Assembly (NCBI RefSeq): GCF_000012985.1
Contig: NC_007645.1
Coordinates: 4,920,581-4,984,580, forward strand
Length of the DNA: 64,000 nt
Source: Hahella chejuensis KCTC 2396
GTDB taxonomy: Bacteria > Pseudomonadota > Gammaproteobacteria > Pseudomonadales > Oleiphilaceae
Direction: 5' to 3'
Below, piece after piece: positions 5,014 through 30,184 of this stretch. Made by a program: the position numbers and the translations under genes. Position 1 is the first letter of the stretch. Each line of letters opens with the position of its first letter. The notes beneath the pieces were generated by a model. The model was not told the DNA's origin, made no database searches, and was given only the letters and a program-made list of their open reading frames with translations.

Positions 5014-5163
5014 TTATTAATCAGGCGGACAAATAGCTTCCTTCTATTTACCTGAAACGACAAGGCTGGCGCATGTCAGGCCCGGTCTCCCGCGGCTTGT
5101 CGCCGCGCAGGCGCGTCCATGCGCCTGGTGATTAACATGGCAATATCATTGCCATGTTAATAA
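5014..5163 (+). repeat. 150-bp intergenic element, copy A (full length)
   Basis: Bounded by TTATTAA (5014-5020) and its reverse complement TTAATAA (5157-5163). Ungapped hand alignment with the minus-strand sequence of 19161-19310 gives about 130 identical positions of 150. Inside are several hairpins, including a perfect 14-bp inverted repeat with a 3-base loop at 5131-5161 (arms ATTAACATGGCAAT and ATTGCCATGTTAAT) and CAGGCGCG/TGCGCCTG at 5108-5126. It begins 36 bases after the stop of the DUF6940-like gene and ends 132 bases before the next start. It holds no plausible ORF. Size, terminal inverted repeats and copy spread resemble a MITE or a large REP-type element. Confidence 0.85.
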
Positions 5164-12632: not shown

Positions 12633-14657
12633 CTACTGTTGCGGATGTCCCAAACCTTCATGAACGGCGTTGAGGATATTTCCGTTATCCGCATCGACTT
12701 CCCAGGTGAATATGCCGGCGAGACCTTTGTCGCGCACATATTCGCCTTTGGCTTTGACCGAGCGGGCGTTATCGTAGGTGATCAACGAGCCATTAGAGAA
12801 GTTCCACAAGAATGGCGCTTGCGCCTTTTCATCGTAGAAATACTTGTAGCCGTCGATGCCCTGACCGTTGGCGCCGCCCAGGAACTTCTGCTCAATGGCG
12901 CGGTAATCCAATACGCCGTCTTCCCAGGTGCCAGCATGCTTACCGCCGCCGGTTCCCGCGAATGGGTCGGTTTCCGTTCCACCCGTGACGCCTTTCCAGC
13001 CGCGGCCGTACATGGCTGCGCCCAACACCAGTTTGTTGGCGGGCACGCCAGCGCTCATCAGGTTATTGATAGTGGCGTCGGAGCTGAAGCCTTCGTGGAT
13101 CTCATGATCGCCTGCATACAGGCCAGTCTGATGACCCAGTTGATCGTTCCAGCCGCCGTAGTAGTCGTACGTCATAGCGAAGACGTAATCCATGTACTGC
13201 ACCGCAGTGGAGTAGTTCACGGAGTCAATCTTGCTTGGCGCGGCCCCTACCGCCGAAGTTAACTGGTATTCTCTGCCGGTTTCCGCTTCCAGCGTATCCA
13301 GCGCTGCGCGCAGGTCACGCATCAGCTCCGCGTAGCCGTCGCGGTCCTGAGGCGAGCCCAGCCCCGTGTTGGCTCCACCACCGCCAGGGTATTCCCAGTC
13401 GATATCAACGCCGTCAAAGAACTTGTAGGTCTTCAGGAAGTCGACCACCGAGTCGACGAACACCGCGCGCTTCTGCGCGTCGTTGGCGAAGTAGAAGAAT
13501 GGATCAGACAAAGTCCAGCCGCCAATAGAGGGCAGGATTGTGATGTCAGGGTTGGTTTTCTTCAGACGTCTCAACTGACCGAAGTTACCGCGCATGGGGT
13601 CATCCCACTTGTCGCCGGGATAGCTCTTCTCGAGCGCCGCGAAACGGTCGTGGATGGTGACTGTGTAGTCAGCCTGGTCGCTACACTCGTTCATCAAAAC
13701 GGAGTGGCCTTGCGGGTTGGCCTGACGCAAAGATTCATTCGGTCCGCACACGGCGATAAACGCGTAAAGCAAATGAGTCAGGTTCTGCGCGGGTATTTTC
13801 TCGACCGGGAAGTTGCGGCCGTAGACGCCCCACTCTACAAAGTATGTGCCGACGACACTGCCTGTAGTGTTCTGATAGGGCTTGTTGTTCTCCATCAATG
13901 GCTTCGGCCAGCCAGTGGTGTCGATCGGATCATCGGAGCCATTGTCGCCGCCGTCTCCATTATCTCCGCCATCGCCATTGTCACCGCCGTCGTCGCCTCC
14001 GTTATCCCCGCCATCGCCAGGGCAGCCGGACGCATCCACCAATTCCCATGGCCCCCATTCGCTGGCGCCGGGCTCATCGCCTTGCGTCCACCATTTAGCC
14101 TTGTAAACAGCGCCTTTGTGGAAGACTTCCTTACCTTGGGTATAAACGGTGGCGGAGTTCCAGGCGGGCGCACTGGCGTCGCAATCATCGCCGCCGTTGT
14201 TGTTGCCGCCGCCGGTGTCATCGCCTCCAGTGTCTCCACCGCTATCACCACCAGTGTCGCCTCCGTTATCACCGCCAGAGTCACCGCCAGTATCTCCGCC
14301 GCTATCGCCACCATTGTCACCGCCGGTGTCGCCCCCATTATCGCCGCCAGAGTCACCGCCGTTATCTCCACCGGTGTCGCCACCGCCATCACAATGATCC
14401 GGCTCTTCGTAACGCCACAATGAACCGACCGCCGGCGTCCAGCCAGCGCCCAGATGAGCAGTGTGGTTTACTAAAGCGGAGTAAATGCCGGAGTTATAAG
14501 TGACATACTGACCGGCGGAGTAATTTCCGCCATCCCGCCAGGCGCCGGACACCTGGGTGCATTCAACGCCCCAGGAGGCCTGGGATGCGGCGATGAGGCC
14601 CGCACAGAGCGCGGTCTTCATAAAGCCGGATTTGCTGTGTTTTTTGTCCATATACAT
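12633..14657 (-). CDS. Secreted modular chitinase, two CBM5/12-like domains and GH18
   Basis: 674 residues. A signal peptide (TALCAGLIAASQASWG) is followed by a first chitin-binding CBM5/12-like module (GAWRDGGNYSAGQYVTYNSG), a long linker built from GGD-N/T/S units (about residues 93-160), a second CBM5/12-like module (PAWNSATVYTQGKEVFHKG), another GGDNGD-type linker and the GH18 barrel from about residue 265. The catalytic motif is FDGVDIDWEYPG, with the proton donor at E422; the substrate-assisting YDYYGGWN segment follows. It should cut chitin outside the cell. Start taken at ATG 14657 with AGGA 8-11 bases upstream; the in-frame ATG at 14651 is possible. A LacI-type palindrome lies 172 bases upstream. 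Confidence 0.95.
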   Translation of the reverse strand: MYMDKKHSKSGFMKTALCAGLIAASQASWGVECTQVSGAWRDGGNYSAGQYVTYNSGIYSALVNHTAHLGAGWTPAVGSLWRYEEPDHCDGGGDTGGDNGGDSGGDNGGDTGGDNGGDSGGDTGGDSGGDNGGDTGGDSGGDTGGDDTGGGNNNGGDDCDASAPAWNSATVYTQGKEVFHKGAVYKAKWWTQGDEPGASEWGPWELVDASGCPGDGGDNGGDDGGDNGDGGDNGDGGDNGSDDPIDTTGWPKPLMENNKPYQNTTGSVVGTYFVEWGVYGRNFPVEKIPAQNLTHLLYAFIAVCGPNESLRQANPQGHSVLMNECSDQADYTVTIHDRFAALEKSYPGDKWDDPMRGNFGQLRRLKKTNPDITILPSIGGWTLSDPFFYFANDAQKRAVFVDSVVDFLKTYKFFDGVDIDWEYPGGGGANTGLGSPQDRDGYAELMRDLRAALDTLEAETGREYQLTSAVGAAPSKIDSVNYSTAVQYMDYVFAMTYDYYGGWNDQLGHQTGLYAGDHEIHEGFSSDATINNLMSAGVPANKLVLGAAMYGRGWKGVTGGTETDPFAGTGGGKHAGTWEDGVLDYRAIEQKFLGGANGQGIDGYKYFYDEKAQAPFLWNFSNGSLITYDNARSVKAKGEYVRDKGLAGIFTWEVDADNGNILNAVHEGLGHPQQ

Positions 14658-19160: not shown

Positions 19161-19310
19161 TTATTAATATGGCAATGATATTAGCATGTTAATACTCAGG
19201 CGCATGGATGCGCCTGCGCGGCGGCCAGCCGCGGGAGACAGGGCCTGACATGTGCGGGCCCTGTCGTTGCAGACAAATAGAAGGAAGCTATTTATCTGCC
19301 TGGTTAATAA
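19161..19310 (-). repeat. 150-bp intergenic element, copy B (full length)
   Basis: Same length and the same TTATTAA (19161-19167) / TTAATAA (19304-19310) ends as copy A, which it matches at about 130 of 150 positions on the minus strand. It begins 38 bases beyond the yaaA stop and ends 9 bases before the start of the SGNH gene, both minus strand. Its hairpins include CAGGCGCAT/ATGCGCCTG and CAGGGCC/GGGCCCTG. Confidence 0.87.
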
Positions 19311-24117: not shown

Positions 24118-24196
24118 TTATTAATCAGGCTCTCCGCCGAGCAGGCGCATCCATGCGCCAGATATCAACATGTCAATATCATTGCCACATTAATAA
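24118..24196 (+). repeat. Intergenic element, copy D (internally deleted, 79 bp)
   Basis: Keeps both ends (TTATTAATCAGGC at the left; AATATCATTGCCACATTAATAA at the right, whose last seven bases are the terminal repeat) and the CAGGCGCATCCATGCGCC hairpin, but lacks about 70 central bases of the full-length copies. Same orientation as copy A relative to the preceding gene, starting 25 bases after the doxX stop. Confidence 0.8.
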
Positions 24197-30056: not shown

Positions 30057-30184
30057 GCCATGTTAATACGCAGGCGCATGGATGCGCCTGCGCGGCGTCC
30101 AGCCGCGGGAGACAGGGCCTGACCTGTGCAGGCCCTGTCGTTGCAGACAAATAGAAGGACGCTATTTGTCTGCCTGGTCAATAG
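30057..30184 (-). repeat. Intergenic element, copy C (one end missing, 128 bp)
   Basis: Matches copies A and B from the CATGTTAAT segment to the TTAATAA end (here TCAATAG), but lacks the outer TTATTAA and the GGCAATATC hairpin on its left side. Its internal hairpins are the most perfect of all copies: CAGGGCCTG/CAGGCCCTG (30114-30138) and the 11-bp CAGACAAATAG/CTATTTGTCTG (30144-30172). It ends 15 bases before the carboxylesterase-like gene start. Confidence 0.82.

Follow-up and report, generated by a model that had tools for sequence, protein, structure and literature searches.

The 150-bp intergenic repeat represented by copies A and B (Table 1) is in all likelihood a MITE that an IS630-type insertion sequence (IS) of the same genome probably mobilizes in trans; we give this joint claim a probability of roughly 93%. 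An initial annotation of the DNA had hesitated between a MITE and a large REP-like element. The first of these readings is supported by the existence of empty sites in related genomes and by the presence, in the same genomes, of a transposase gene bordered by matching ends. The starting point was a window of 64,000 nucleotides (the whole stretch of DNA analysed), spanning positions 4,920,581-4,984,580 of the one contig, which is 7,215,267 bp long. The genus set comprised seven genomes, G000 to G006; the window belongs to G000 and the six others were searched.

Copies A (5014-5163, plus strand) and B (19161-19310, minus strand) are 150 bp each and align without gaps, with 130 of 150 positions identical. 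Both begin with TTATTAA and finish with TTAATAA, and their interior is made nearly entirely of hairpins. All of this agrees with the earlier description. The hairpins number five and follow one another. When folding was compared with dinucleotide shuffles, z scores of -4.45 (copy A) and -6.33 (copy B) were obtained, and none of 200 shuffles equaled either copy. The two further window copies that had been counted to make a family of four do exist, but both are incomplete, and the family is far larger than four. Copy C stops right past the inner TATTAACATG of hairpin 5; its ortholog in G003 is the same incomplete copy at the same site. Copy D is a possible mini-version of the element, and the gap in which it lies contains other partial copies of the element in G003 and G006. 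Elsewhere in the window, a minus-strand ORF (12633-14657) contains 12-bp tandem repeats at positions 14196-14411.

Table 1. Copies of the element in the window and parts of copy A (window positions)
Feature	Position	Strand	Remarks
Copy A, full-length MITE	5015..5162	+	TA 5015-5016, 144-bp element 5017-5160 (TTAATC...GTTAA), TA 5161-5162
Copy B, full-length MITE between duplicated TAs	19162..19309	-	alignment, empty sites
Copy C, right terminus missing, ends inside hairpin 5	30059..30183	-	
Copy D, 77 bp, internally deleted, hairpins 1 and 2 lost, both TA...TA ends kept	24119..24195	+	
Copy A, left end and hairpin 1	5014..5055	+	stem 5025-5036 / 5044-5055
Copy A, hairpin 5 / right end	5130..5163	+	

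Alignment of 31 copies defined the borders of the repeat. The conserved block runs from TATTAA to TTAATA and covers 148 positions; conservation is lower at the single outermost base on either side of the 150 bp (0.76 and 1.54 bits). The ends are sharp, flanking columns carrying 0.00-0.32 bits and the inner end columns mostly 2.0. Terminal inverted repeats are present, perfect over TATTAAY and imperfect further inward. Thus, the 7-bp terminal inverted repeat proposed at the outset is real but forms merely the outer part of imperfect ends of about 26 bp that are related to those of an IS (see below). Since the empty sites indicate that the outer TAs are duplicated target, the element proper measures 144 bp, to which the 2-bp TA duplication is added.

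The repeat belongs to an abundant family. Full-length matches in G000 number at least 40, out of 264 candidates, and a search for the hairpin-1 pattern allowing up to 3 mismatches returned 202 sites (87 + 115) in the 7.2-Mb genome, against 0 for the reversed-pattern control. There are thus far more than the four copies initially noticed. Across several genomes, 127 distinct copies were collected, of which 88 are full-length. A covariance-model search gave at least 53 matches in each of G000, G003 and G006, 42 in G004 and 5 in G001; by DNA search the element is abundant in G003 and G006, matches 32 times in G004 and 3 times in G001, where all matches are divergent. At one G001 locus (L070) a relic of the element persists, in which hairpins 1 and 2 are separated by additional repeats of about 22 bp each. 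Neither the DNA nor the covariance-model search found copies of the element in G002 and G005. With stricter filters, the covariance-model search of 58 relatives found matches in five genomes of the genus only and none in the 51 genomes outside it. At the level of the order, a DNA search considering the best two candidates at most per genome gave matches in 5 of 390 genomes, one being G000; the matches in the other four, all outside the genus, extend over 21-37 bases only, in a search that could miss weak relatives. A plasmid collection searched with the element yielded no match, and no Rfam family matched anywhere in the window at the gathering score. A literature search on Hahella repeats and insertion sequences, covering titles and abstract openings and lying outside ISfinder and the original genome paper, returned nothing on the element.

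Mobility was assessed by comparing the sites of full-length copies with the orthologous sites of relatives. Segments of 800 kb each from G000, G003 and G006 (3 x 800 kb) contained 25 full-length copies, giving 50 comparisons. These yielded 37 sites joined flank to flank, 10 cases without orthologous flanks on both sides and 3 with a large gap, inside which a recheck found no element. One of the 37 flank-to-flank sites is occupied by a truncated copy, leaving 36 empty sites. The copy in question, G006:929536, is full-length, and the same site of G000 holds the truncated copy 4788934-4789016; not every copy is therefore young. A recheck with looser flank requirements found 39 of the 50 comparisons to be without the element and 8 without an ortholog; in the other 3, an element lay within the interval or close to it. 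One of these three is the G006:929536 case just described. In another, G003:2641278 represents an independent insertion next to a different G000 copy, and in the last the full-length copies G003:2672080 and G000:4809708 lie in the same gap with junctions that cannot be matched. At least one empty site in relatives was found for 19 of the 25 full-length copies. Neither copy A nor copy B is present at its orthologous site in any of the three genomes G003, G004 and G006. Sharing is commoner among partial copies (12 of 40 comparisons, both directions counted and copy C with G003 included), and matching flanks are seen for several divergent copies of G004 and G006. Copies common to several genomes are mostly truncated, as expected of older insertions. 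In short, relatives lack most full-length copies at the orthologous sites, and the conservation at such sites that had been named as the sign of an immobile element did not appear for most of them.

The empty sites also made it possible to score four models of the ancestral site: one TA kept, 0 bp, TATA, and an element-end model. Keeping one TA was the unique best model at 25 of the 36 empty sites, and in 20 of 28 high-scoring comparisons. The remaining 11 sites were divided between the 0-bp model (5), TATA (3), the element-end model (1) and ties (2). Two internally deleted copies of 137 bp account for four of the five 0-bp cases, and the fifth is copy A compared with G006. The length of the duplication at copy A is ambiguous (0 bp once, a tie between 0 bp and TA once) because of a small local indel. 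For copy B, the empty site in G003 is best explained with one TA, and at the G006 site TATA scores one point above TA. In a clear case, the occupied site of G003 reads ...TTATGT[TA TTAATC...GTTAA TA]GTCAGCG and the empty site of G000 reads ...TTATGTTAATCAGCG. Most empty sites agree with an element that inserts at TA and duplicates these 2 bp. As TA duplication is typical of the IS630/Tc1-mariner group, this group is indicated.

IS candidates were found through PF13358 matches in the genus. Among the 5 of 29 G000 candidates that were scored, one was intact (L173; G000:C1:3354618-3355719), 1102 bp long with both TAs and with an uninterrupted frame. Its transposase (344 amino acids, in a 348-aa open frame) belongs to the IS630 family (NF033545, E 1.2e-69; PF13358, E 1.2e-39). 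The ends of the 1102-bp IS are TATTAAYCMGGCATCGATATAGGCAT; the IS is bounded by TA, with ends TTAAYCMGGCATCGATATAGGCAT. Against the IS end, the right end of the MITE scores 21 of 26 identical positions in the family consensus and 20 of 26 in copy A, which reads TATTAACATGGCAATGATATTGCCAT on the other strand. The left end matches at 17-18 of 26, the left end of copy A, TATTAATCAGGC, resembling an IS630-type end. When 900 TATTAA sites in 2.4 Mb were scored against the IS end, all those reaching at least 19/26 proved to be full or partial MITE ends or an exact IS-type end. Thus, a full-size IS630-family IS with related ends does reside in the same genomes, as was anticipated for a MITE. The IS resembles the MITE in its ends and in the TA...TA that flanks them, and differs from it in being 1102 bp long and coding, with an interior devoid of extended similarity: when the element consensus was set against four copies of the IS, the matches beyond the ends were all short, the best being of 14 bases and in an orientation discordant with the end match. 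With the left end matching at 17-18 of 26 and nothing long shared beyond the ends, we can only infer that an IS of exactly the L173 type would be the one that mobilizes the MITE in trans.

The distribution of the two elements in the genus is consistent with their association. IS-type ends with at most 1 mismatch occur 4 times in G000, once in G001, 11 times in G003, 18 times in G004 and 9 times in G006, and not at all in G002 or G005; IS-type ends and MITE thus co-occur in five of the seven genomes and are both missing from the other two. Of 381 genomes of the order, 13 others contain relatives at 30-67% identity, and related ISs of other genera have ends starting TTAA[CT]C[CA]GG between TAs at 4 of 6 loci examined. 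A second IS630 group in G000, with 208-aa frames, was considered as a source and rejected, no element-like ends being found at those loci. Two side observations concern the IS group itself. A 66-bp interval, G003:C1:3276174-3276239, holds a facing pair of IS630-type ends and may be a second, even smaller MITE. In addition, the intact IS and its neighborhood are 98% identical over 2.8 kb between G000:C1:3354618-3355719 and G003:C1:3892221-3893322. Since identity between the two genomes is about 83-88% around the window, the segment with the intact IS appears to have been recently shared between them.

The same data bear on the possibility that the repeat is a REP/REPIN-like palindrome moved by a Y1 tyrosine transposase (RAYT/IS200-type) acting on single-stranded DNA hairpins. 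The hairpin interior would suit such an element, genes for Y1-type transposases exist in the genus, and the copies are mostly intergenic, at a median distance of 36 bp from gene 3' ends. Y1 transposition is not known to produce a target duplication, and the TA duplication at most empty sites argues strongly against this reading, yet five sites favored no duplication. Moreover, Y1_Tnp is found in all seven genomes and the repeat in five, so that presence of the repeat does not track Y1, and the ends of the element match those of an IS630 element. We thus consider the large REP-like alternative of the initial annotation very improbable.

A further question is whether the repeat could be immobile and held in place by selection, as a conserved RNA structure or a cis-regulatory sequence, such as a terminator-like or RNase-processed one. 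Genomic context was analyzed for 59 full-length G000 copies, using simple, crude ORF calls and 1500 random positions as background. ORFs contained 3 of the copies, 2 more could not be placed, and the others lay in tandem (27), convergent (14) or divergent (13) gaps; 1311 of the random positions fell inside ORFs and 3 could not be placed. Convergent gaps account for 14 of 54 intergenic copies against 25 of 186 intergenic background positions, which counts in favor of this reading. In tandem gene pairs, orientation is balanced (15 same, 12 opposite), which speaks against it, and overall the placement looks like gene avoidance rather than regulatory positioning. The sharing of some old copies by several genomes, the lower variability of stems and the two-sided changes in paired positions (see below) count in favor of selection in place. 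On the other side stand the predominance of comparisons without the element between orthologous flanks (39 of 50, against 3 with it), the lack of an Rfam match in the window at the gathering score and the plus-strand G.U data given below. Since orthologous conservation is lacking, an RNA or cis-regulatory role is largely refuted as the cause of spread; we hold this explanation to have only a slight chance of being correct. A secondary role of some copies is possible.

Two alignments were used to examine how the hairpins vary: one of 70 copies, namely the distinct 150-base copies among the 88 full-length ones (identical copies and those of other lengths were dropped), and one of 55 copies, combining 26 near-consensus copies with 29 mostly more divergent ones. 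Mean variability was lower at paired than at unpaired positions in both (0.025 vs 0.080 in the 70 copies; 0.065 vs 0.140 in the 55). In the 55-copy alignment, standard pairs made up 91.8% of cells vs 90.6 in shuffles, and two-sided changes occurred in 16 of 50 pairs, compared with 6.5 (sd 2.0) in shuffles and 5-11 in slid controls. The shuffles overstate significance, because the sequences are related and the structure derives from their own consensus; the slid controls are fairer. The two-sided changes are located in helices 1, 2, 4, 6 and 7 and not in helices 3 and 5. No plus-strand G.U bias was detected in these data (58 G.U vs 110 A.C cells; 32 vs 41 kinds of event). With G.U not favored over A.C, there is no sign of selection on a plus-strand RNA. 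A cause at the DNA level, a minus-strand RNA and templated correction of palindromes all fit the stem data.

The last of these possibilities would leave the MITE as such unaffected: its hairpins would be kept perfect by templated correction of imperfect palindromes and would have no function. Besides the absence of a plus-strand G.U excess, it draws support from L245 (G006:C1:4266916-4267364) and L079 (G004 contig 47), apparently the same locus as judged by flanks. Relative to the other, one of them has 2 bases inserted in each arm of hairpin 1, the two insertions matching; this suggests palindrome-templated mutation at that locus. Common variants of young copies lie mostly in loops and linkers, which goes against templated correction and which selection on source copies predicts likewise. 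We see templated correction as a serious contender whose chances fall somewhat short of even. It is doubtful, although conceivable, that the five-hairpin interior is a selected structure, the MITE lineages that go on spreading being those with paired stems, since the hairpins would have a role in single-stranded DNA or in RNA. If so, the hairpins would be functional structured cargo rather than filler, aiding, for example, transposition by a DDE enzyme during replication or protection of a transcript.

Combining these elements, the spread of the MITE can be pictured as follows. The IS transposase would bind the approximately 26-bp MITE ends in trans and cut the MITE at TTAA, and the MITE would then be inserted into TA dinucleotides, mostly between genes. 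The excess of stem pairing over the controls would come about either through selection of palindromic DNA or RNA in source copies or through templated mutation that keeps the palindromes perfect. A high-copy repeat is thus now bounded, with its insertion chemistry and a likely transposase. Being amplified in several genomes and having a recognizable source IS, it lends itself to studies of why strong hairpins are retained in bacterial MITEs.

Compared by description, the element appears to be a new family of a known kind, the IS630-type MITE, like RUP/IS630-Spn1 and MITEPlu5. The Correia/NEMIS repeats resemble it more broadly, as high-copy bacterial MITEs with terminal inverted repeats. Correia/NEMIS elements also target TA, and promoters and IHF sites have been described in Correia elements. 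In the portion of the source available, Correia/NEMIS of Neisseria is presented as a high-copy MITE with terminal inverted repeats and transcripts processed by RNase III (PMC10969869). RUP, associated with IS630-Spn1, is described in the accessible parts of its sources as a 107-bp element of about 110 copies with IS630-like ends, a TA target, a predicted secondary structure and enrichment between convergent genes (PMC3049150, PMC2229807); it is AT-rich, and the text available gives no clear evidence of its being more mobile than BOX (PMC3049150). By these descriptions RUP and the present element are alike in being short, high-copy and structured, with IS630-like ends, a TA target and a raised share of convergent gaps, and differ in host, length and composition. 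As for mobility, most full-length copies of the present element are absent from relatives, which are, however, different species-level genomes. MITEPlu5 of Photorhabdus, as far as the available part of its source goes, is 123 bp long, with 552 complete copies in TT01, a terminal TA duplication, ends like those of the CCC-type IS630 subgroup and an 'extremely strong secondary structure' (PMC6267812). On that description it shares with the present element the TA duplication, the IS630-like ends and the strong secondary structure, and differs from it in its CCC-type ends, as against TTAAYC here; the present element has five separate hairpins. RUP, MITEPlu5 and the present element would thus follow a common plan, about 100-150 bp in length and present in a hundred to several hundred copies.
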